Source: Terriglobia bacterium (GTDB taxonomy: Bacteria > Acidobacteriota > Terriglobia > UBA7540). Taken from it: DNA of 64,000 bases. The notes under the pieces are model-generated. The model did not search any database, was not told where the DNA came from, and worked only from the letters and a program-made list of their open reading frames with translations. Shown piece by piece: positions 26,526-38,349 of the stretch. Every line of letters starts with the position of its first letter. The first letter of the stretch is position 1. The stretch covers positions 62,001-126,000 of the forward strand of contig DASTAW010000008.1 in the NCBI GenBank assembly GCA_035712365.1. Direction: 5' to 3'. The position numbers were made by a program, and so were the translations under genes.

Positions 26526-29030
26526 CTATTTGCTTTGTGGCCGCCCCACGTAACGCCGGTTCTCATCCAGATGGAAAGCGGTCGGCACCGCGCCGCGCAC
26601 AGCAACCGTGGTCTGCTCCTCAGCCGGAAGCCCATCCACGCCGTCAACGGCCAACTTCACGTTGTAGTCGGAAGCTCTGGTGAACGTGTGACTGACCTCC
26701 GGCCCCGTGGCCGAAGTTCCATCGCCGAAATCCCAATGATACGAGAGCGCCGGAACGCCATCGGCGGCAGCAATCGCCTGGAGCTTGACGGCTTGGCCGG
26801 TGCCGGCGGAAGCTGGCGCGTTCAGCGTGACGGAAGGCGCAGCGGCCGGAATCGACGAATTGATGATCTTAATCAACCGCACCGAATGCGGCGGCTGCTG
26901 GCTGATGCTGATGCTGCCGGACTCGATGGCAACCGGCGCATCATCGTGGAGCGCGTTAAGGGCTTGGTATGAACCACCCTCTGCCAGACCGAGGTCTGTG
27001 AGCTTAATGACGTGCGAGCGCGGCCCGTCCGTCCAGTTGAAGACCGCCAGCATCGACTGCCGTGCGTCCTCCTTCAGAAAATATTCGCTGGGCATCTCGT
27101 CTTGAGCGGAAAAGCTCATCAGGTCGAGCGGCGTGGCTGCGCGGCGCAGCTCCACCATGCTCAGCAGATCCTTGTTTTCCACCAGCGCCAATCGATCAGG
27201 CGCGGAAGCCAGCGTCGGGAGATCGTCACCGACGTCGTACATTCCTCCGGCAACCGCCGCAATCACGGCTTGCACATCAGCCTCTTCCAGACTCAGAGGC
27301 TGTCTTCGGTTATGCCATGTCTGTTGCGGCTCCACTTCGGTTGAAACGCTGAAGGCGTCGGGGTCGCTGATATAGAAATTCCGGTTCATGTAATATCGCG
27401 CGGCGATGTTGGGATCGGCATCCTTGCTGGCCCTGAAAGAATGGCCCGTGTCCGGGGCGATGCGTCCTTCATCCACCAGCCCAACGGGAACCAACATGGC
27501 GCTGCCATCCTTGTCGAGCAGTACGCCGTCGCCCACAGCGTCGCGGATGATTTTCAGTCCGATCCGTTCCGCTTCAAGAGCGGTGGTGTGCGGGCGATAG
27601 AAGTAGCCTTCAATCGCCGAAGAATCCATGAAGTCGAGTTTGATATAACGCACACCCCACTGGCGCGTCAGCACACGATAGGTCTCGCGGAGATACTTCT
27701 GCGCTCCGGGATTGGTGGTGTCCAGGGAGTAGAGCGGATCAGCGCCACGGTGCACGGAACCGATCTGGATCGGCTGCCCCTTCGCGTCATGCACCAGCCA
27801 ATCCTTGTGATGCTGGTAAACCCAGGCGCGCTCCGACACTTCAAACGGCGCGGTCCAGACGCCCAGGTGCAAACCCATCTGGGTGATTTTGTAACCGAGA
27901 CTGCGCATGCCGTCGGGAAATTGCGTCGCGTTGGCGGTCATGAATTCGCCGCGGGCGTAGTCGTAGCCTTCGTCGATGTGGCAGAAATTGAAGCCGAGAG
28001 ACTCGAGATGTTTCGCAAGCCAGTCGGCGTTCGTCAGGACCTCGCCTTGAGTAATGCCGCCGTAAAACGCCGTCCAACTCCACCAACCCATGGGCGGCTG
28101 GCTTGAAACTCGCGCGTGGTGCAAGCGCTGCACGGCCGCTCCGTAGGCTTCCAGTTGCGCGTGATAGTCGGCGCCCGCGGCAAACATCACGGTTTCTGAA
28201 CTCAACTGTTTGCCAGGTGCAACGGGAAGGCTCAATTCCACGCGCTGGGCGGGCGCGATGTGGTCCCTCAGAAGGACGGCCTCGGTTGTGCCCGTGGAGT
28301 CCACGGTAAACGAGCCGATGCTTGAAGACCCCATGGGAGGTTTTTGCACTTTCAGATGGAGCGCCGTCATGAAGCGGTCTTCCGTGAGCGCGGCCACCAG
28401 AAGACTCTGCTTGCTCTGCAGGTTGTAGATCAGAGCGTCGCGCACTCCGAAATATGTTCCGTTGGGCGCCTGGTCAAGGCCGCCGATAGGGATGGTGGGA
28501 TCTTCCGTGAAACTTTCAAACATAAAACGGTCCGTGGCTTCCGTGCTCCCCAGGTTGATTCGCGGGTTGCCGATGGCATCGACGTCGCGGATGGATTCGA
28601 CGGACACAGTTTTCGTCATGTGGTTCAAGACTTCAACCTGCACCGTTCCGTAAGGAAGATCGCGGTACAGGCGCAGAATACAGACGAGATCGGGGGAAGA
28701 GCTGAGACCGCTGAAGGTAATCGTGGCCTGCTCTCCCGAGCCCAGGCCATCCTCGAAAGTGTTTTGGGCCGTCTGATGGTGCGGATAGTCGCTCGAACGT
28801 ACCCAGCGATGATTGATCTCTGCGCCAACACTTGCTTCAAGTACGGGGGCCTGCAAATGGTTGGCGCTGATTGCATATGATCCGTTAGCCGGGTTGATGA
28901 TGATGGTCAACTGCGAATTGTGGAGCGAAACCGCTGCGGATGCTGAGCCTGGCATTGCAAATACGACCACGAAGAATAAAAACAGAGCGAGACAACCGAA
29001 AAGGTGAAGCTTCGCTGCCGGATTTTTCAT
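26526..29030 (-). CDS. Secreted alpha-galactosidase-like glycoside hydrolase (clan GH-D) with PKD domain
   Basis: An 834-residue exported protein. A Sec signal peptide covers about residues 1-33 (hydrophobic core ending ASAAV). An N-terminal beta-sandwich precedes a TIM barrel that begins PPMGWWSWTAFYGG; FCHIDEGYDYARG and the nucleophile segment YIKLDFMD are present, matching melibiase-type retaining enzymes (GH27/GH36). A beta domain follows. The last 90 residues are a PKD domain with YHWDFGDGTSATGPEVSHTF, probably for polysaccharide binding. The likely job is release of alpha-linked galactose or a similar sugar outside the cytoplasm. It may be the last gene of the minus-strand sugar locus. 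Confidence 0.83.
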   Translation of the reverse strand: MKNPAAKLHLFGCLALFLFFVVVFAMPGSASAAVSLHNSQLTIIINPANGSYAISANHLQAPVLEASVGAEINHRWVRSSDYPHHQTAQNTFEDGLGSGEQATITFSGLSSSPDLVCILRLYRDLPYGTVQVEVLNHMTKTVSVESIRDVDAIGNPRINLGSTEATDRFMFESFTEDPTIPIGGLDQAPNGTYFGVRDALIYNLQSKQSLLVAALTEDRFMTALHLKVQKPPMGSSSIGSFTVDSTGTTEAVLLRDHIAPAQRVELSLPVAPGKQLSSETVMFAAGADYHAQLEAYGAAVQRLHHARVSSQPPMGWWSWTAFYGGITQGEVLTNADWLAKHLESLGFNFCHIDEGYDYARGEFMTANATQFPDGMRSLGYKITQMGLHLGVWTAPFEVSERAWVYQHHKDWLVHDAKGQPIQIGSVHRGADPLYSLDTTNPGAQKYLRETYRVLTRQWGVRYIKLDFMDSSAIEGYFYRPHTTALEAERIGLKIIRDAVGDGVLLDKDGSAMLVPVGLVDEGRIAPDTGHSFRASKDADPNIAARYYMNRNFYISDPDAFSVSTEVEPQQTWHNRRQPLSLEEADVQAVIAAVAGGMYDVGDDLPTLASAPDRLALVENKDLLSMVELRRAATPLDLMSFSAQDEMPSEYFLKEDARQSMLAVFNWTDGPRSHVIKLTDLGLAEGGSYQALNALHDDAPVAIESGSISISQQPPHSVRLIKIINSSIPAAAPSVTLNAPASAGTGQAVKLQAIAAADGVPALSYHWDFGDGTSATGPEVSHTFTRASDYNVKLAVDGVDGLPAEEQTTVAVRGAVPTAFHLDENRRYVGRPQSK

Positions 29031-29153: not shown

Positions 29154-29798
29154 TCAGGACTGATGTTCCGGATGGGTGCACGCCCCCGGGAACGACGTGT
29201 TGTAAGTATCTCCCTGGTACTGCAATTCCTGGTCGAGGCCGATTTTTGACGAGTAGTATCCGAAGATCGTCAATCCTTTAATAAAGCTGAAAGCTTCCAC
29301 ACCGGCCGCATCTTCCGGTTGCGCTTTCGAAGGGTCGGCAAGGGGCTTCAGCAATTCAGTCTGTTCGGCTTCAGTGAGGCTGATAAACGGCTTGTTGTGG
29401 AGCGCCAGGCTGCGGCCATCGAACCATGCCAGCGCCTGAATAATTTCCTGCTGATTTTTCGAACTCTCTTCGTTGTATCTCAAGTCCAAGTAGCGATTCA
29501 CCAGCGCCGCTTTGGCCCCGGGCGTATCCGTCGTCGGGATAATCAGATCGCTCAGGGCGATCAGCGTTTCGTTCTGGTGGGCGTCAAAGAACTGCGGCTT
29601 CCAGTTTGCGCCGGTCTGTGCGATAGCGTCCACGTCATCCGGTGACATATCCATCCCGGGCATGCCGGACATGGCGGTGCGAGCCGGCTGCGCCTGCCCG
29701 AGAATCGGCAGCGTCGTCAGGCCTCCGGCGCCCATCACCAGAGTTTTCAGCACGCCGCGACGTCCCTGATTGGTTTCCTCTTTGTTTTGCTTTGTCAT
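29154..29798 (-). CDS. Gluconate 2-dehydrogenase subunit 3-type protein (Tat-exported)
   Basis: A 214-residue protein. The N-terminus has a twin-arginine signal (GRRGVLKTLVMGAGGLTTLP). The mature part fits gluconate dehydrogenase subunit 3, with LIALSDLIIPTTDTPGAKAA and a Leu/Glu-rich helical region. In the known family this small subunit carries the flavoprotein across the membrane by the Tat route. It lies 38 bases downstream of the GMC flavoprotein, its expected partner. GAGGAG precedes ATG. A short Met-rich stretch (MSGMPGMDMS) follows the signal and could bind copper; that is inference. Confidence 0.85.
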   Translation of the reverse strand: MTKQNKEETNQGRRGVLKTLVMGAGGLTTLPILGQAQPARTAMSGMPGMDMSPDDVDAIAQTGANWKPQFFDAHQNETLIALSDLIIPTTDTPGAKAALVNRYLDLRYNEESSKNQQEIIQALAWFDGRSLALHNKPFISLTEAEQTELLKPLADPSKAQPEDAAGVEAFSFIKGLTIFGYYSSKIGLDQELQYQGDTYNTSFPGACTHPEHQS

Positions 29799-29836
29799 GA
29801 CGGTGCTCCTCGTTTTCCTGGATTAACCCGGCGCCC

Positions 29837-31507
29837 CTAGCTGAGGTCTCCGGTGCGCATCTTTTCGGCAATGTAGTCGGCGGTCCGCAGGGAGAGCGCG
29901 AGAATGGTGAGCGTCGGATTCTTCTCCGTGGAATTCACAAAGCACGAAGCGTCCGCCACAAAAAGGTTCTTGATGTCATGCGACTGGTTGAATTTGGTCA
30001 GGTACGATGTTTTCGGATCGTCTCCCATTCTTGCCGTTCCGGCCGAATGGATGCTCCATCCTGGCGGCAGAGGCGTGGTCCTCTCACCGATGATCTCAAT
30101 CCCCGCCTTTTCAAACATCTCCCGCTGCGCGTCATTAGCATCACGACCCATGGCCAGTTCGTTCGGCCCCCACTCCACTTCGAACTTCAGGACGGGAATG
30201 CCCCAGGCGTCACGCACGGCGGGATCAATCTCCACGTGGTTTTCGGCCCTTGGCACCACTTCACCGAACGAGCCGATGCTGATTACCGTCGCGTAATATT
30301 TTTTCACTTCTTCTTTGAACTCGGCGCCGAAACCAGGAATTTTGTTGGCAAAGCCGGGAAACTCGCTGCTTCCACCGCCGCCCTCATACCCGTACCCGCG
30401 CACAAAGTCCTTTGACTTCTCTTTCAGGTTGCGGAAGCGCGGGATGTAAATGCCTCCGCCTTCCGGGTGTGCGTCGCCACCGCGGTTGGTGTTCCCTTTC
30501 AACCTCGGAATGATTCCAGAGATGCTGCCGGCCATGATCTGTTCGCAGAAATATTTGCCCAGCACGCCGCTGGAATTGCCCAGGCCGTCCGGATGATCGT
30601 CGTTCCTGGAGTTCAGCAGGATGCGCGTGCTGTCGAGTGTTCCCGCGCCCAGCACGATCACCTTGCCGTAAACCTCTTCCACCTGGCGCGTGATGCGGTC
30701 GATAAAAACTACGCTCTTGGCGCGATTCTCGCTGTCGGTTGTCACCCTCCAGACCACGGCGTTGGTGCGCGTGGTCAGGTTGCCTGTCTTTTCGGCAATC
30801 GGCAGCAGCACGCCCGCCGAACTGAACGAGGCAGCGACGTTGCAAACCCGCCCGCAGTGCCCGCACCAATGGCACGGAACGCGACCGTGGAAGCCCGGCT
30901 TGGTCACCGTGGCCGAGCGGCCCTGAATCACCGGGCGGCCCGCAAACTTGCTCTCAATCTGCCCCCTGAAAATGTTTTCCGCGCAGGTCAGGGGAATGGG
31001 GGGAAGAAAATGGCTGTCGGGATTGTTCTCCAGATGGTCCGTATGGCCGCAAACCCCGATCCAGTCCTCCACCTTGCTGTAGTAGGGTTCAACGTCTTCG
31101 TAGGAGATGGGCCAGTCCGAGCCGGCGCCGTCGTGGCTGGCGGCCTTGAAGTCCTGCGGGCTGAAGCGCAGCGAAACGAGCCCCCAGTGGAGGGTCTTGC
31201 CGCCGACGGCTTGAGCCCGCACCCACACAAACTTCTTACCCGTATAGGGGTTTTCAAGCTCATTTACAAAGTGCTTTTTGTTCCACTCGTCGGCCGTGTA
31301 GTTATACATCGCCCGCTCTGACGGCCGGACGCGGCCCCGGAAGGGAAAGTTATAGGGCTTGCGGTGATGCTCGAAATCGGTCGCAATATTGAACTTCGGC
31401 CCGCGCTCCAGCATGAGGACCTTCAGCCCCTTCAGGCACAATTCGGTGGCCGCCATGCCGCCGGCAGCGCCGGATCCCACAACTACAACGTCGTAAACTT
31501 TGGCCAT
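29837..31507 (-). CDS. GMC-family flavoprotein dehydrogenase (gluconate/sugar dehydrogenase large subunit type)
   Basis: A 556-residue GMC oxidoreductase. The FAD-binding VVVGSGAAGGMAATELCLKG opens the protein; LTTRTNAVVWRV and VIVLGAGTLDSTRILLNS lie in the middle. The C-terminal catalytic region has HSAGTARMGDDPK and the NPTLTILALSLRTADYI end. A Cys cluster CHWCGHCGRVC (about residues 215-225) resembles the iron-sulfur site of periplasmic gluconate and FAD-glucose dehydrogenases. It has no signal of its own and is expected to ride with the Tat subunit encoded just downstream. No cytochrome c subunit gene is in the window. AGGGAGG precedes ATG. Confidence 0.88.
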   Translation of the reverse strand: MAKVYDVVVVGSGAAGGMAATELCLKGLKVLMLERGPKFNIATDFEHHRKPYNFPFRGRVRPSERAMYNYTADEWNKKHFVNELENPYTGKKFVWVRAQAVGGKTLHWGLVSLRFSPQDFKAASHDGAGSDWPISYEDVEPYYSKVEDWIGVCGHTDHLENNPDSHFLPPIPLTCAENIFRGQIESKFAGRPVIQGRSATVTKPGFHGRVPCHWCGHCGRVCNVAASFSSAGVLLPIAEKTGNLTTRTNAVVWRVTTDSENRAKSVVFIDRITRQVEEVYGKVIVLGAGTLDSTRILLNSRNDDHPDGLGNSSGVLGKYFCEQIMAGSISGIIPRLKGNTNRGGDAHPEGGGIYIPRFRNLKEKSKDFVRGYGYEGGGGSSEFPGFANKIPGFGAEFKEEVKKYYATVISIGSFGEVVPRAENHVEIDPAVRDAWGIPVLKFEVEWGPNELAMGRDANDAQREMFEKAGIEIIGERTTPLPPGWSIHSAGTARMGDDPKTSYLTKFNQSHDIKNLFVADASCFVNSTEKNPTLTILALSLRTADYIAEKMRTGDLS

Positions 31508-31699: not shown

Positions 31700-32398
31700 T
31701 CAACAGGAAGAGCAGAACGCGCCCAGCAAACCCACGGCCTCTCTGTCAGCAGAGAGCAGATGCGGTCCCAACGGCGAACCCAGAAAGACCAGCGTTCCTT
31801 TCCCGATCCGGCGTTGGACGGCAACCGGTAATTTCTGGAACCGGGCAATCGTCTCACCGTAGCCGTCGCGGACGGGAACAACCCGGCTGAAATCACGAAC
31901 CTTTGTTACAACGGGCCAGTGGTAATCAACGTAGGGTGCTTGTTTGAACGAGTCTGCGGAATCCCATAACCGGACGGGATCATGAAGGCCCACTCCGAAC
32001 ACTGACCTTATAACACGCTTATGAATCTCAAATTCTTCCGGCTCCAGGAATGCCGCCCCGGTTTCATACACGACGACCGACCCGCTCTCGAGATAATTTT
32101 TCAGCTTGCTTATGGCCGCCGATTCTGTAGAAACAGCGGCTGGCACGAACATCATGTGCGCAGGCGCGAGCGCGTCAATGAAACTCTGGCGCCAGGAAAT
32201 GCTCAATCCGGAGAGCGCTGCTGCATAACCTGCAGGCGACTCACGCAACGGACAGGCCGGCCCAGGATCAACCACAACGCACCGGGAGGGCCGTCGCGCA
32301 CCCTCAGAGAGAAGGCTACCCAGCCCCGCAGCGCCGGCCACTCCAGCCGCGGAAGCGCCCGCCGCAAGTCCCAGAAATTCGCGTCGCGAAATGGGCAT
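31700..32398 (-). CDS. Tat-signal protein, unknown function
   Basis: A 232-residue protein with a clear twin-arginine signal MPISRREFLGLAAGASAAGV. The mature domain contains VVVDPGPACPLRES, VVYETGAAFLEPEEF and GKGTLVFLGSPLGPHLL, suggesting a Rossmann-like or glutamine-amidotransferase-like (ThuA/BPL-type) fold with no evident catalytic triad. ATG 32398 is 1 base after the stop of the sugar isomerase, so translation is coupled. I do not recognise the family; export together with the sugar genes hints at periplasmic carbohydrate work. Confidence 0.6.
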   Translation of the reverse strand: MPISRREFLGLAAGASAAGVAGAAGLGSLLSEGARRPSRCVVVDPGPACPLRESPAGYAAALSGLSISWRQSFIDALAPAHMMFVPAAVSTESAAISKLKNYLESGSVVVYETGAAFLEPEEFEIHKRVIRSVFGVGLHDPVRLWDSADSFKQAPYVDYHWPVVTKVRDFSRVVPVRDGYGETIARFQKLPVAVQRRIGKGTLVFLGSPLGPHLLSADREAVGLLGAFCSSC

Positions 32399-32399
32399 T

Positions 32400-33239
32400 C
32401 TAAACCCTGTTGGCAATCAGGCGGTCAATGGCCGCTGCGGTGTCATAAAACTGCTGGTCTTCCGCGTAGTGGTATCGCCGTTCCATTTCTGCCACCAGCC
32501 ACCCATCGTACCCCACCTTGTTGATGGCGGCGCGGATGGCCTTCCAGTTGTTGTCGCCAAGGAAAATGTTGGTGTAAACGCTGTCGTGGCCGCAACGGCC
32601 GCGCTGTTTCATGACGTCTTTTAGATGGATCCGCGTGATGCGCGGCCCCATCATTTCAATCCACTGCTCCGCAAAGCCATCGTCATGAATGTTGCCTACG
32701 TCCAGATGGATGCCTACCGAAGGCTCGTTGATGTCCTTGAGAAACAGGAGAAACTCGCGTGGGCCCATCAGGAAGCGCTGCTCGGAGTTGCAATTCTCGC
32801 AGCCGATTTTGACGTTGGCGCGGGCCGCATCTGGCGCAACCGTCTTAATGGCCTCGACCGACCGGTTGTAGACTTCATCGTAGGGAATCTCTTCCGTCAC
32901 CAGTCCCGCCACCACCAGGATGGCATCCGTGCCGAGGATCTGCGACGTCTCGATCTGGCGCCTCACAATTCGAATACCTTCTTCGCGCAGCTTCGTGTCG
33001 CGCGCAGAGAGCGAGTATTTCCAGTGGAGGCCGGTTGAAACGTTGGAAACCACCAGTCCGGCGTTTTCAACCTTGCGCCGAAGCTCGCGCACTTCAGCGT
33101 CGGTGGTGCTCATCTGGAACCACGGAACATCGCCGAGCCAAAGCTCGATCCCGTCGTATCCGGCCTTCTTGACTAACTCCAGCCCCTGCTCGAAACTCCA
33201 GCCCTTTGGAATTTCGTTGTCGCCTATAGATTTTTTCAA
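32400..33239 (-). CDS. Sugar phosphate isomerase/epimerase (xylose-isomerase-like TIM barrel)
   Basis: A 279-residue TIM-barrel protein of the AP endonuclease 2/IolE-like family. FEQGLELVKKAGYDGIELWL starts the barrel. Metal-ligand candidates are Glu in GCENCN, Asp in VGIHLDVGN, His in ITRIHLKDV and Glu near the end in WLVAEMERRY. Such enzymes isomerise or epimerise keto-sugars, inositol derivatives or hydroxypyruvate. The start is a TTG at 33239 with weak ribosome signal; a stop codon 10 codons upstream limits any longer choice. It is coupled to the Tat protein downstream and 130 bases after YjbQ. Confidence 0.82.
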   Translation of the reverse strand: MKKSIGDNEIPKGWSFEQGLELVKKAGYDGIELWLGDVPWFQMSTTDAEVRELRRKVENAGLVVSNVSTGLHWKYSLSARDTKLREEGIRIVRRQIETSQILGTDAILVVAGLVTEEIPYDEVYNRSVEAIKTVAPDAARANVKIGCENCNSEQRFLMGPREFLLFLKDINEPSVGIHLDVGNIHDDGFAEQWIEMMGPRITRIHLKDVMKQRGRCGHDSVYTNIFLGDNNWKAIRAAINKVGYDGWLVAEMERRYHYAEDQQFYDTAAAIDRLIANRV

Positions 33240-33368: not shown

Positions 33369-33800
33369 TCACTCGCCCAACACCTGGACCATGTATGTGC
33401 GAAGCAAAGGCCCGTCGTATTCCATGAAATAGATGGTTTGGCGCGAGCCGCGCACCATCCTGCCATCCTCGATGGGAAACGAACAACTGATGCCTCCCAG
33501 AATGCTCTTCAGGTGGGTTTCGGCGTTAAAGCCCAGGCGCCCATCGTAGTCGAGATAACGGCGGTGATGGTAGTTCTCATCCTCAGGAAAGAGCCGGCTG
33601 AAGTGCGTCAGGATGTCTTCTTCCAGGCACGGAATGCCTTCCGTCACCAGCAGTCCTGAAGAAGTATGCGAGGTCATCACATTCACCAGCCCCTGCTTCA
33701 CGCCGCTCTGCTGGACGACTTCTTCCACCTTTGGCGTGATGTTGATGGCCTCTTCGGACTTGCGCGACTGCACCTTAATCTTTTCAAGCTTGATAATCAT
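33369..33800 (-). CDS. YjbQ/UPF0047 family protein
   Basis: A 143-residue protein. The family hallmarks are present: HTSSGLLVTEG (usually HTTxxL), HRRYLDYDGRLGFNAETHLKSILGG, and the C-terminal GRMVRGSRQTIYFMEYDGP. Members can show thiamin-phosphate-synthase-like activity in vitro, but the physiological role is uncertain and they often occur in unrelated operons. It lies 27 bases after the amidohydrolase in the sugar operon. Cytoplasmic. AAGGCGGG precedes ATG. Confidence 0.9.
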   Translation of the reverse strand: MIIKLEKIKVQSRKSEEAINITPKVEEVVQQSGVKQGLVNVMTSHTSSGLLVTEGIPCLEEDILTHFSRLFPEDENYHHRRYLDYDGRLGFNAETHLKSILGGISCSFPIEDGRMVRGSRQTIYFMEYDGPLLRTYMVQVLGE

Positions 33801-33827: not shown

Positions 33828-34673
33828 TCAGTTGAGACCCAGCAACCGGCCGGGGTTCTCCTCAAAAACTTTTTTCAGACAGCCCTCCGTCAGCGCCAGC
33901 GTCCCGAACGCGTGTACCATATTCTTGATTTCAACCCGCGGGTAATTCGAGCCAAACACCATCCGGTTGCGCAGGCTGCGCTCCAGCACCGTGGTCGGGA
34001 TCTGCTTTGAGAAAACAAACTGGTAGAACTCTTTTGGCCCGTCGTAGTAGAGACACGATGTGTCCAGATAAACGTTGGGATACTTCAACGCCAAGGCGGT
34101 GGCTTCCCACACCCACGGCCAGCCCCAGTGCGCCAGCACAAAATTGAGCATTTTGAAGCGCACAATGGCCTCCTCCAACAGCATGGGATGGCCGCGCTCA
34201 ATCAGCGTGGCGGGCGCCCAACTCATACCGGTGTGTACCAGCACGGGAATATTTAATCCCGCCGCCACTTCGTAAAGCTCGTAAACCTTGCTGTCACGGA
34301 GTTCAAAATCTTGAAGAGCCGCGTCGAGTTTCAGGCCCTTCATGCCCAACTGTTTGACCGCGTGTTCCAGTTCCTTTGCCGCGCCCGTCTTCAGCGGGTC
34401 CACGCTGGCAAAACCGATAAAGCGGTCGCTCGTGGAACACAGTTCCGCCACCTGCTCGTTGGAGCTGACCGCGTCGCCCCGCGCCCGGGCACAATCGATC
34501 GGCAGCAACACCGCGCGGTCAATGCCGGCCACGTCCATCTGCAAGTAGAAGGTCTCGAGCGGTTGGAAATTGTTGCCGATCTGGAAAATGTCCCGGGCCA
34601 TCCGGGTATAATTGGGGTACTTGTCCGCCATCTCCTGAATCAGTACCGGGTGCGTGTGGAAATCGATTCTCAT
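33828..34673 (-). CDS. Amidohydrolase-2 (COG2159-type) family protein with catalytic Asp replaced by Asn
   Basis: A 281-residue TIM-barrel protein. The metal-site residues HxH (His6, His8 in DFHTHP), His147 in LVHTG and His182 in LAHWG are present. The usual catalytic and metal-binding Asp in GSDYP is Asn243 here (FGSNYP, codon AAT at 33947-33945), a change that should weaken or alter hydrolysis or decarboxylation. ATG 34673 overlaps the kinase stop (ATGA) and has GAGG upstream; the longer open frame is not used. The family includes ACMSD-type decarboxylases and lactonases such as L-fucono- or rhamnono-lactonase. A lactonase or lyase role in the sugar operon is possible. Confidence 0.82.
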   Translation of the reverse strand: MRIDFHTHPVLIQEMADKYPNYTRMARDIFQIGNNFQPLETFYLQMDVAGIDRAVLLPIDCARARGDAVSSNEQVAELCSTSDRFIGFASVDPLKTGAAKELEHAVKQLGMKGLKLDAALQDFELRDSKVYELYEVAAGLNIPVLVHTGMSWAPATLIERGHPMLLEEAIVRFKMLNFVLAHWGWPWVWEATALALKYPNVYLDTSCLYYDGPKEFYQFVFSKQIPTTVLERSLRNRMVFGSNYPRVEIKNMVHAFGTLALTEGCLKKVFEENPGRLLGLN

Positions 34674-35614
34674 GCTGCCGCCTCGTTCCTGTGCTCTTCT
34701 AGAAATTGCCGCCATGTCGCCGGTTCGCGGAATGCCTCCGTGCCGCCCGGCTGCGTGGTTGAAAATGCGCCCGCAAGATTGCCGCCGGCCAGGCAAGCCT
34801 GCAGCTCGGCGCCGCGAACGTACTGGTCCAGGAAACCCGCATCAAAACTGTCGCCAGCGCCCACAGGGTCAACGGCGTTTACGGAATACCCGGGGTGCGT
34901 CCATTCCTCCCCGCCGCGCCGCACCCGTGCGCCTTGTGCCCCCCGCTTGATGGCAACCACCTGCACCTGGCCGGCCAGTCTCTCCACCGCTGCTCTCAGG
35001 TTCTCTTGGCCTGTAATCCTCCCGGCCTCGCGTTCATTCACAAACAAAACGTCCACGTGTGGCAAAACTTCATCGAGACCGTCCCAGCGGTCGTCGGGGT
35101 CGTCGTTTGTATCGAGCGAGGTACTGAGCCCAGAACGCTTCATCTGTTCAAACAATTCCGGGATGCGCGGGCGCAGCGCCCGGTGAAGGTAAAACGAAGA
35201 AAGATGGAAATGTTTTCCGGAACGCAGGTAATCAAGGTCAAGGTCGTCGTATCCCATCTCAAACATTGCGCCGGGATACGTCAGAATTCGCCGGCTGCAT
35301 GAACCCGTGACGATGACGGTCAGCCCTGTCTTGGTTGCTCCGGCCACACTTCGCACCCGGCTCACATCCACGCCGCCGGAGGCAAGCCGCTCCAGAGCGA
35401 TTTTGCCCAGCGGGTCAGTCCCGATGCGCGAAATAAAACCGACCCTGTTGCCGATCACCGCCAGGTTATGGGCAAAGATAGCCGACGAACTTCCCAAGGT
35501 CAGGGCCAGATTGTCCGCCAGAAGTTCCTTTTCCGGCTCCAGTTCGTCCGGCAAACCATAAAGAATCAGGTCGAGGTTCAGCTCCCCGACAACCGTCACG
35601 TCGAATTGCGCCAT
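34670..35614 (-). CDS. PfkB-family carbohydrate kinase 1
   Basis: A 314-residue ribokinase-fold kinase. VVGELNLDLILYGLP opens the protein, GSSSAIFAHNLAVIGNRVGFISRIGTD is the first family signature region, and DPVGAGDSFDAGFLDQYV contains the GAGD anion hole and catalytic Asp near residue 250. It phosphorylates a sugar, sugar acid or nucleoside with ATP. It lies 8 bases after the SIS gene and overlaps the amidohydrolase by 4 bases, so all three are tightly coupled. The pairing with a SIS protein resembles amino-sugar or inositol-type catabolic operons, but the substrate is unknown. Confidence 0.9.
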   Translation of the reverse strand: MAQFDVTVVGELNLDLILYGLPDELEPEKELLADNLALTLGSSSAIFAHNLAVIGNRVGFISRIGTDPLGKIALERLASGGVDVSRVRSVAGATKTGLTVIVTGSCSRRILTYPGAMFEMGYDDLDLDYLRSGKHFHLSSFYLHRALRPRIPELFEQMKRSGLSTSLDTNDDPDDRWDGLDEVLPHVDVLFVNEREAGRITGQENLRAAVERLAGQVQVVAIKRGAQGARVRRGGEEWTHPGYSVNAVDPVGAGDSFDAGFLDQYVRGAELQACLAGGNLAGAFSTTQPGGTEAFREPATWRQFLEEHRNEAAA

Positions 35615-35622
35615 CCTGAGTC

Positions 35623-36705
35623 CTATTCGGCCTTCCCCTTCAGTACGACCACGCGGCTCAAATGCCTTGGCTCGTCAGGATCAAAGCCTCGCTTCAGCCC
35701 CAGGTACAGCCCCATCAACTGAGCGGGCAGAATATGCGGGGCCAGGCGCGCTACTTCAGGGACGTCCAGTTCCAGTTCGATCAGCACGTCCGCTGCCCGG
35801 CGAACCTTGTCATTCGCACGGTTCGTAATGACGAGCGTGCTGCCACCCAATTCCTTCATCTCTTCCAGCACTTCCTGCTCGGAAGCTCCCGTGCTTTCCG
35901 CCAGGAAAAACGTCAGCAGAGTTTGCGGGCTCACAATCGACTTCGGGCCGTGGCGGAATTCCAGGGTATGAAAAACTTGCGCGTAAGAGCAGGACATCTC
36001 TGTCACCTTCAACTGCCCCTCCGATGCGATCCCGAAGAACGGCCCCTGTCCCATAAAAACGTAATCCGCAAATTCGTTGGAGCTGGCAAACTTTTCAATG
36101 CACGGCTGCAATCGCTTCAGTGCCCGTTGCGCCTGCCCCGGCATCTGCTTGAGCGCCTCCAGAAAATCATTGTCACGGCCGACCCAGCCCGCCAGCGCCT
36201 GCAGGCCCAGCAGCATGGTGCTGAACGAACGGGTCATCACCGTGCTCCGTTCATCCGCCGCAGGAAGCAGCAAAGCAGAGGTCACCCGCTTTTCAAGTTC
36301 CTTCCCCGTCGCACAGCTGACTGCCAGGGTCCGGATGTCGCGTTCGTTCTCGAGGGAATCGGCCGCCATCAGCATCTCGGTAGTGTGTCCCGAGCGTGAT
36401 ATCAGGACGGGCTGACACTTGCCACTTCCCAGAACCTGGTCGGGATAGAGCAGAAGTTCAGAAGCCGGCACGGCCTTTGACCGCTGGCCTGTAATGGCGG
36501 TCCAGCTCCAGGCGGCCGCTTGCGCCACATAGTAACTCGACCCGCAGCCGACAAAAACCCACTCATCAGCCTTCTTCAGCGGCTTCAGGGCTTCCTCATA
36601 TCGGCCGTGCTCTTCAAGTTCCTGCAAAGTGGCAGCCCAGACACTGGGCTCTGACATGATCTCTGCGTAACTCCGATGCCCTCGGCCCTCTAAAATTTCA
36701 CTCAC
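35623..36705 (-). CDS. SIS-domain sugar isomerase/deaminase (AgaS/FrlB/GlmS-C-like)
   Basis: A 360-residue protein with two SIS domains. The first has VFVGCGSSYYVAQAAAW and SRSGHTTEMLMAADSL; the second has EFRHGPKSIV, the Glu-x-x-His-Gly-Pro motif of the GlmS isomerase half. There is no N-terminal glutaminase domain. Family members deaminate or isomerise amino-sugar phosphates or cleave fructoselysine phosphates. GTG 36705 is the start because GAAGGAGG sits 7 bases before it; the longer frame to 36780 would place this ribosome site inside coding. It is first in a tight minus-strand operon and is preceded by a promoter and palindrome. Confidence 0.87.
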   Translation of the reverse strand: MSEILEGRGHRSYAEIMSEPSVWAATLQELEEHGRYEEALKPLKKADEWVFVGCGSSYYVAQAAAWSWTAITGQRSKAVPASELLLYPDQVLGSGKCQPVLISRSGHTTEMLMAADSLENERDIRTLAVSCATGKELEKRVTSALLLPAADERSTVMTRSFSTMLLGLQALAGWVGRDNDFLEALKQMPGQAQRALKRLQPCIEKFASSNEFADYVFMGQGPFFGIASEGQLKVTEMSCSYAQVFHTLEFRHGPKSIVSPQTLLTFFLAESTGASEQEVLEEMKELGGSTLVITNRANDKVRRAADVLIELELDVPEVARLAPHILPAQLMGLYLGLKRGFDPDEPRHLSRVVVLKGKAE

Positions 36706-36796
36706 TCCACTGCCTCCTTCAAGCCTGATAACGACATACAATTCGAACGGAATACGTTTGGTTTGGGAGCTATGCAGCAACTAGCCGACTGCAAGT

Positions 36797-36975: not shown

Positions 36976-38067
36976 TCAGCGTTCCCGGTTAAGCCATGGG
37001 GTTACAGGCACCTGACCAGGATTTTTTGGCTTATAAGGCCAGGTGATGCGCTTGCCGGTGGCTGCCGATTCGTATGCAGCATAGATAATCTCCAGCGTCG
37101 CGCGACCGTCCTCGCCGGTTTCCATCGGTTTCTCTTCACCCAGCACAGCGCGTGTGAAGTGCCGCATCTCGTGCGGAAAGCCGTAAAGGAAGGCTTCCTC
37201 AAACACGGTGAAAGTCCAGCCTTTGGTTTCGCCGGCCTTTTCCACTGCATAGCCGTAGCCGCGCTTGCTATAGGTCTCCATGGAACTCCCACGGAGCAGG
37301 TCGCAATGGACAACGCCCTCGGTCCCGTAAAGGTCGGCACGGTCATCCATGCCCCCCTGGCGCGCCCAGCTATCTTCGACCACGGAGATGCCGCCGTTTT
37401 CGAATTCAACGATCACGATGGAATTGTCATCGCCTTTCGTTCTTCCTTTGTGATAAACGAGCTGGCAGTGGGCGGTAACGCTTTTGACCTTTGGCTTGCC
37501 ATAAACCCAGCGGGTCCATTCGATGCCGTGGCATCCCATGTCCATCAGCGCCCCGCCGCCTGACCGCTCGACATCATAAAACCAGTCGGAGTGCGGCCCG
37601 GAGTGCTTTTCACTTTGCTTGGCCATGTAAAGCTCGCCGATGGCCTTCTCATCCACCAGGTGCTTGGCGCGAACATACTTGGGCGAAAAGCAGATGGTTT
37701 CTGCATACATGAGCTTGACCTTGTGCTTCTTGCAGGCGGCAATCATGGCGTCGGCATCTTCCAGAGTGTGGGCGATTGGCTTCTCCAGGATGACGTCCTT
37801 GCCGGCTTCCGCGGCAGCAACAACGATTCTCCGGTGCAAATCGTTGGGAACCCCTACCACCACCACGTCCACGTCTTTCCGCTCCACAAGCTTTCGGTAA
37901 TCCGTCATTGCCACCGGTATCTTCCACTTGCTGGCAAACTCCTCAACGCGTTTCTTGTTGGAAGAGCACGCAGCGACAAGCTGGGCCTCCTTCACCTCCT
38001 GGAAAGCTTCTGCATGAAGGTTTGAAACGAAAGCCGACCCGATAATCCCCACCCTCACCTTGTCCAT
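36976..38067 (-). CDS. Gfo/Idh/MocA family oxidoreductase
   Basis: A 363-residue NAD(P)-dependent sugar dehydrogenase. The nucleotide-binding KVRVGIIGSAFVSNLHAEAF is at the N-terminus; VVVGVPNDLHRRIVVAAAEAGKDVILEKPIA has the conserved Glu-Lys-Pro; DMGCHGIEWTRWV holds the usual catalytic-region His. ATG 38067 with GGAGGAGCG upstream is chosen over the longer open frame that runs through a tandem repeat. Members oxidise or reduce sugars, inositols and their derivatives. It is on the same strand as the SIS operon but 270 bases upstream, with its own divergent gap to the second PfkB kinase. Confidence 0.9.
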   Translation of the reverse strand: MDKVRVGIIGSAFVSNLHAEAFQEVKEAQLVAACSSNKKRVEEFASKWKIPVAMTDYRKLVERKDVDVVVVGVPNDLHRRIVVAAAEAGKDVILEKPIAHTLEDADAMIAACKKHKVKLMYAETICFSPKYVRAKHLVDEKAIGELYMAKQSEKHSGPHSDWFYDVERSGGGALMDMGCHGIEWTRWVYGKPKVKSVTAHCQLVYHKGRTKGDDNSIVIVEFENGGISVVEDSWARQGGMDDRADLYGTEGVVHCDLLRGSSMETYSKRGYGYAVEKAGETKGWTFTVFEEAFLYGFPHEMRHFTRAVLGEEKPMETGEDGRATLEIIYAAYESAATGKRITWPYKPKNPGQVPVTPWLNRER

Positions 38068-38124
38068 GATCGCTCCTCCGACAAATTCCGTTTTTTCGCC
38101 CGCCTTGCTACCCTGCGTGGGACG

Positions 38125-38157
38125 CCGGCCACTTCCCGGCCACTTCCCGGCCACTGC
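38125..38157. repeat. Short tandem repeat, three 11-bp units
   Basis: CCGGCCACTTC twice and CCGGCCACTGC once, head to tail, followed by CCGGCAA. It lies in the 282-base divergent gap between the Gfo/Idh/MocA gene and PfkB kinase 2, where it could be a repeated binding site or a slippage tract. Confidence 0.7.
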
Positions 38158-38349
38158 CGGCAACCTTCCAAGATACCACAAGCCCGGGTGAACTCGAATT
38201 CCTAATCGGCCTGGGACGGCCCCCGCATCGAGGTCCGAAAGGAACGGAACTCCTCTTAGCCCCGCCACGGACCCTTCGGCAAAATTTTATTGCAAGGGTG
38301 CGACCATCGGCGATAGCATCCAAGGCTCTCGTCTTCGGGGAGAAACCAG

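Follow-up and report, generated by a model that had tools for sequence, protein, structure and literature searches.

The DNA analysed here, called the window, is a stretch of 64,000 nucleotides from a Terriglobia bacterium (G000:C8:62001-126000, in an assembly of 4.67 Mb). It contains a run of genes on the minus strand, one of which encodes an Amidohydro_2 protein with Asn at position 243; this protein, encoded at 33828-34673, is labelled AMH below. The features are as follows:

32400-33239, minus strand: xylose-isomerase-like TIM barrel (PF01261, 148 bits)
33369-33800, minus strand: UPF0047/YjbQ protein of 143 aa, of the AMH-linked subtype (GSRQ and the inserted RYLDYDGRLGFNA; PF01894, TIGR00149, fold of 1vph)
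33828-34673, minus strand: AMH, Amidohydro_2 protein of 281 aa (PF04909, AF2 model, PDB fold match)
33945-33947, minus strand: Asn243 codon AAT in the GSNYP motif, the position being counted from the ATG at 34673
34670-35614, minus strand: PfkB-family sugar kinase (PF00294, 167 bits)
35623-36780, minus strand: SIS-domain protein, nearest to GlmD/GlmS/AgaS (PF01380, 73.7 bits)
36976-38268, minus strand: GFO/IDH/MocA oxidoreductase upstream of the SIS gene (profile match; the true start is probably within the ORF)

AMH matches PF04909 with 143.4 bits against a gathering cut-off of 26.4, over profile positions 1-289 of 289, and is thus a member of the family. No NCBIfam model, that of NagA included, matches it at E <= 0.001. 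The AF2 model has a pLDDT of 95.3 and displays the TIM-barrel fold of the solved members (2dvt, Z 23.7); its best PDB fold match is 3irs, with Z 28.9, rmsd 2.4 and 258 aligned residues. A longer version of the ORF, of 322 aa, begins at an upstream TTG; the ATG start is supported because orthologues begin at the same IDFHTHP. Translation from this ATG gives D4, H6, H8, H147, H182 and N243, the last within FGSNYP. The earlier note had reported all four His ligands (6, 8, 147 and 182) and a change of GSDYP to GSNYP at Asn243, codon AAT, and the translation agrees on both. The closest named relatives of the gene come from Acidobacteriota/Terriglobia metagenome genomes.

The ATG of AMH (34673-34671) and the PfkB stop share an overlap of 4 nt, and 8 nt lie between the end of the SIS gene and the start of PfkB, so the tight coupling to a kinase and an SIS gene described in the earlier note is real. 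The YjbQ gene starts 27 nt downstream of AMH. Against NCBIfam, the SIS protein scores 129 bits for GlmD, 128 for GlmS and 109 for AgaS, each below the cut-off, and the PfkB protein attains the cut-off of no model. NagA is absent among the ten window proteins around AMH that were scanned with Pfam and NCBIfam. A promoter scan of the window found none where 2.1 were expected, and its terminators are at chance level. The outer genes show weaker linkage across the 53 loci of a contig scan: homologues of the xylose-isomerase-like gene occur in three (L052, L081 and L089; tblastn, E 1e-6), and GFO homologues on the AMH strand also in only three (L055, L061 and L091). The GFO/IDH/MocA gene holds the same place in L055, where AMH shares 90% identity with that of the window. 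Further out on the minus strand, the operon ends with a 238-aa protein of no Pfam or NCBIfam family (31700-32416), whose start looks twin-arginine-like by eye. On the same strand, downstream of the operon, lie a GMC oxidoreductase with an adjoining gluconate 2-dehydrogenase subunit 3-type protein (29154-31507) and a large protein that appears GH27-like by eye alone (26526-29030); relatives of the latter are found near AMH and YjbQ in L046, L053 and L055 (59-78% identity).

A search independent of the motif recovered AMH orthologues from 20 of 39 genomes of the same family. All 20 carry Asn and read FGSNYPRV, the 19 besides the window's own being 54-93% identical to it, and residues F240 to I249 are invariant in the first alignment (19 rows). 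In the 53 contig-scan loci, the Asn codons followed by Tyr are AAC in 27 cases and AAT in 23; as both are in use, what has been conserved is the amino acid, not the DNA. The contig scan yields 51 Asn to 2 Asp, a ratio that leans towards Asn, since FGSNYPRV was one of the two peptide patterns used. Draws free of this bias comprised 39, 396, 400 and 250 genomes, partly shared with each other and with the contig scan. The 396-genome draw holds two orthologues above 430 bits, the window's own with Asn and that of G142 with Asp; the 400 genomes from the phylum of L079 hold two above 300 bits, both with Asn; and the 250 genomes from the order of L069 hold 12 AMH proteins, of which 10 have Asn and 2 have Asp. 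Named members of the subfamily belong to Acidobacteriota, Chloroflexota, Thermomicrobiota, Actinomycetota, Ignavibacteriota, a spirochaete, 'delta proteobacteria' and Njordarchaeota.

The Asp-bearing members L069, L072 and L093 (GSDNP) form a single clade, with support of 96/98, nested within Asn rows of an 82-row tree, which is rooted at the midpoint, omits L090 for its length and carries a program warning of long branches. The alignment A2 left out eight contig-scan loci with longer AMH proteins as well as the fragments L087, L090 and L091; the AMH of L090 is in pieces with its middle missing, and that of L091 is broken by frameshifts. Because the tree nests the Asp rows inside the Asn rows, the GSDNP members look like reversals. 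Judged from this tree, Asn is the ancestral state of the AMH subfamily and Asp a later change, and by its distribution the Asn replacement is old and fixed, not a peculiarity of the window genome. The Asp clade carries Asn at the place of Tyr244, and the motif of L126 is GSNNP.

The earlier note had suggested that Asn should be looked for in orthologues of the same context, and that close orthologues with Asp there would point to a point mutation or sequencing error. Asn is indeed conserved at the family level. Asp orthologues in a PfkB/YjbQ context do exist (L069 and L072 at 52-53% identity, and L093 likewise), which formally matches the second expectation; however, the tree places them inside the Asn rows, so they do not count as evidence of an error in the window. 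Its view that the gene is unlikely to be decaying holds as well. A point mutation, a sequencing error or decay in the window has a negligible chance of being the explanation: the frame is open, the operon genes overlap, F240 to I249 do not vary, and the 20 Asn orthologues together with the tree rule out mutation and decay. Two outlying loci deserve mention. An archaeal protein (Thermoprotei, L088:6230-7081), 33% identical, has Asn243 but Ile246, with no YjbQ nearby; judging from it, Asn may be older than the association with YjbQ. On a deltaproteobacterial contig (L090:8001-8437), AMH is split over two frames without the part containing His147 and His182, and looks like a remnant.

The four His residues (H6, H8, H147 and H182) are kept in 45/45 subfamily rows, which thus all have the HxH (or ExH) motif and two further His. 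Three other positions separate the subfamily from 40 Asp-type rows, a comparison that left out rows L107-L121 and one row that was too short. Residue 246 is Arg in 44/45 subfamily rows, against Phe in 25, Val in 8, Leu in 3 and Gly in 3 of the Asp-type rows. Residue 167 is Glu in all 45 against Asp in 39/40, and residue 14 is Glu in 43/45 (the exceptions are Ala14 in L126 and Gly14 in L085) against Trp in 18, Phe in 6 and Glu in 6, with 7 gaps. In these alignments, Arg246, Glu167 and Glu14 are marks of the AMH subfamily. The nearest proteins outside it are Asp-type relatives (L094-L106 and L127-L154; 27-36% identity in 28 rows) from the window's phylum and that of L079. Their motifs are GSDYP, GTDAP, GSDWP and the like, and no YjbQ lies within about 1.5 kb of any of them. 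Other proteins from the window's phylum also depart from Asp: L109, L112 and L116 have Asn in GSNFP or GTNFP and Gln at the place of His147, L107 and L108 have Phe in GSFFP, and L115 has Gly in GTGAF. Six such non-Asp rows fall on the AMH side of the tree (90/75; 95/82 for L107/L108), on long branches and with weak to moderate support. There may have been independent losses of Asp or one old loss predating the AMH subfamily; the rows fit either. A second, larger PF04909 protein occurs near AMH and YjbQ in 15/53 loci by blast clustering, and Pfam confirms it in L039:11850-13037, L051:9183-10412, L074:13050-14270 and L086:9358-10488.

YjbQ is the most constant neighbour of AMH. Neighbour counts for the 53 loci rest on stretches that reach at most 8 kb per side and are often shorter. 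In 47/53 loci YjbQ lies no more than 200 bp downstream of AMH, on its strand, and in two (L057 and L060) it lies further off. It is missing from L042, L050, L088 and L090; L050 ends just past AMH, and L042 extends 1.1 kb downstream of AMH without a YjbQ. The total of 49/53 compares with 36/53 each for SIS and PfkB, and these two were rejected as defining partners. The context named in the earlier note was right as far as it went, but it missed the more closely tied gene just downstream. With flanks of about 1.5 kb, YjbQ accompanies AMH in 22 of 23 distinct subfamily loci, the sole miss (L021) being at a contig end, and is found near none of 73 other related loci from the same searches, L107-L121 included. 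Of the 39 family genomes, the 20 with AMH and no others have a match of more than 200 bits to a profile of the YjbQ subtype, the best other match reaching 109 bits; in G017, AMH and YjbQ sit at the ends of two contigs. The two also co-occur in the same 2 of 400 genomes from the phylum of L079 (Anaerolinea, Chloroflexota), and all 12 AMH loci from the order of L069, whether Asn or Asp, hold an Arg-type YjbQ. Such co-occurrence is in part a product of tight linkage. Since the three Asp members carry the same YjbQ subtype, the pairing does not strictly depend on Asn itself. Our literature search found nothing joining YjbQ with an amidohydrolase, and nothing on an amidohydrolase with an SIS domain and PfkB.

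The window YjbQ is a clear UPF0047 member, scoring 104 bits for PF01894 (cut-off 27) and 110.5 for TIGR00149 (cut-off 67.75), with a fold match to 1vph at Z 20.9, rmsd 2.9 and 136 aligned residues. Foldseek matches of its model above Z 5.2 are UPF0047 entries only. Among the solved structures matched, the family has nine distinct sequences. It reads GSRQ in place of GxWQ, which is usual in the family but is not a curated defining feature. At position 120, 51/52 linked rows have Arg, whereas the 12 unlinked rows have Trp (10) or Ser (2); a second set gives Arg in 13/14 linked rows against Trp in 26, Tyr in 1 and Phe in 1 of 28 unlinked ones. The exceptions among linked proteins are L126, with Ala (GEAQ), and L085, which reads GSRM. 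The linked proteins also have an inserted conserved stretch, and by these sequence features they are a separate subtype of UPF0047. The monomer model has a mean pLDDT of 81.7, with residues 78-90, part of the inserted stretch and containing invariant residues, below 50; this segment may become ordered on contact with a partner, a further subunit or a substrate. Two more UPF0047 genes of the ordinary GxWQ type occur in the same genome (G000:C27:74606-74941 and G000:C40:128170-128514), and the family is present in 10/14 control genomes of bacteria and archaea. Php is a member of the amidohydrolase superfamily. A 2021 review (PMC7954711) lists UPF0047/YjbQ under 'unknown function' and describes how an E. 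coli pdxB mutant is relieved of its vitamin B6 requirement by extra yjbQ, and also by 'php'. This rescue is a hint, no more, that YjbQ might handle small phosphorylated or hydroxy-acid compounds.

The remaining neighbours of AMH point to the breakdown of phosphorylated sugars, including amino sugars. A cluster of DeoR-type regulators, two members of which are named by Pfam, is represented in 22/53 loci. L085 (Breznakiella homolactica, a strain with a complete genome, AMH 36% identical) has NagA and NagB, each above one curated cut-off, together with parts of an ABC transporter and a regulator of the GntR type; L077 has NagA above one curated cut-off and PTS parts; and L057 has an aldolase of the LacD (tagatose-bisphosphate) type, L058 a phosphofructokinase and L081 an ABC solute-binding protein. 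SIS and PfkB are missing from some well-covered loci (L059, L073 and L075); the sugar context is therefore not shared by all loci, and the AMH-YjbQ pair may also serve elsewhere.

We put at about even the chance that AMH is a working metal enzyme of an old Amidohydro_2 subfamily, partner of a modified YjbQ in acting on a phosphorylated (amino-)sugar intermediate. An ancestor of AMH would have exchanged the metal-binding, proton-carrying Asp for Asn. PMC8187880 describes iso-orotate decarboxylase Asp323Asn (PDB 4LAM) with metal and substrate bound, so a natural Asn form can keep its metal without residue 243 as the proton carrier. By analogy, the metal would most likely be held by His6, His8 and His147 together with the side-chain oxygen of Asn243, while His182 and the Glu residues would serve as acid and base, and Arg246 would hold the substrate by its phosphate or carboxylate. 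AMH and YjbQ, as all but obligatory partners, would catalyse consecutive steps or form a complex. Their substrate would be a phosphorylated intermediate of (amino-)sugar breakdown, with SIS probably performing a flanking deamination or isomerisation and PfkB a phosphorylation, in an order that is likewise conjectural. More tentatively, AMH and the Arg-type YjbQ could be a two-protein enzyme that carries out a new reaction, its substrate being a phosphorylated (amino-)sugar derivative. The rebuilt AMH site (Asn243, Arg246, Glu14 and Glu167) would bind and polarise this substrate but lack its own proton shuttle at 243, and YjbQ would supply the missing step.

The main rival to a working enzyme, which we regard as rather improbable, is that AMH is a pseudoenzyme. 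It would have lost catalysis and would bind YjbQ or act as its scaffold, leaving the chemistry to that protein. The lost residue is the proton donor in LigW and in the gamma-resorcylate, 2,3-dihydroxybenzoate and iso-orotate decarboxylases, as set out in PMC8187880, and relatives with this Asp changed are among the ligand-bound structures, both the Asp323Asn form and, by the titles of the PDB entries, 2-pyrone-4,6-dicarboxylate (PDC) hydrolase D248A. The nearest fold, 3irs, has lost even more of the site, and segment 78-90 of YjbQ, conserved yet poorly predicted alone, behaves as a partner-dependent loop might. Against a scaffold stands the (near-)invariance of four His and several charged residues across very distant phyla, where a scaffold would be expected to lose its His site. 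If Asn simply does the work of Asp, AMH could be an ordinary hydrolase such as a lactonase: its fold matches include the 2-pyrone-4,6-dicarboxylate hydrolases, which are lactonases, and COG3618 members, and the GFO and PfkB genes of the window could make or act on sugar acids. This we consider unlikely, as AMH matches no NCBIfam family and so few loci have a GFO homologue on its strand; the sugar lactones that the earlier note proposed as test substrates thus get no backing from family models.

A deacetylase of N-acetylated amino-sugar phosphates, standing in for NagA or AgaA beside an SIS deaminase-like enzyme, seems to us just as doubtful. The adjoining SIS protein is of the right affinity and none of the ten scanned window proteins is NagA, but L077 and L085 carry NagA above the TIGR00221 cut-off beside AMH, and the fixed link to YjbQ would be left unexplained. 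As the sole deacetylase in those two loci, AMH was rejected. Very unlikely is a conversion of Asn to Asp after translation, which would restore a canonical mature site: the GSDNP clade does show that Asp is tolerated in AMH, but a single-base substitution would produce Asp outright and has seldom been retained, and the use of both AAT and AAC tells against it too.

A UPF0047 branch that goes with a single amidohydrolase subfamily, frequently within sugar operons, provides a defined two-gene unit for tests of function, and a two-protein enzyme, if real, would give that branch a physiological role. The subfamily also shows that the usual Asp of the superfamily can vanish for good while the four His stay.

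Among known proteins, the best PDB sequence match of AMH is the uncharacterized BB4693 of Bordetella bronchiseptica (PDB 3irs and 3k4w), with E 2.1e-16 and 24% identity. BB4693 also lacks the Asp, having Ala there (GTAYP) where AMH has Asn, and it has Met at the place of His147. Since BB4693 and other non-Asp rows lie near AMH, relatives with a degenerate site exist and the loss of Asp may predate the subfamily, which counts against the working-enzyme reading. ACMSD, LigW and the gamma-resorcylate and iso-orotate decarboxylases share the fold of AMH (Z about 20-24), and ACMSD has its His residues at the same positions. The same holds for iso-orotate and gamma-resorcylate decarboxylases, by the account in PMC8187880, which also describes the Asp as both metal ligand and proton donor in these two and in LigW, and as proton donor in 2,3-dihydroxybenzoate decarboxylase. 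More generally, the Asp of well-characterized relatives is a metal ligand and passes a proton to the substrate (PMC8187880, PMC6305744). AMH differs from the decarboxylases in having Asn243 for this Asp, and in Arg246, Glu14 and Glu167; our literature search found no natural Asp-to-Asn variants. The linked YjbQ shares the fold common to UPF0047/YjbQ proteins (1vph, 1vmj and others), which have His45, His79 and His96 in all 42 database rows and Glu or Asp at 127, and it departs from the usual members by Arg for Trp in GxWQ and by the inserted conserved stretch.
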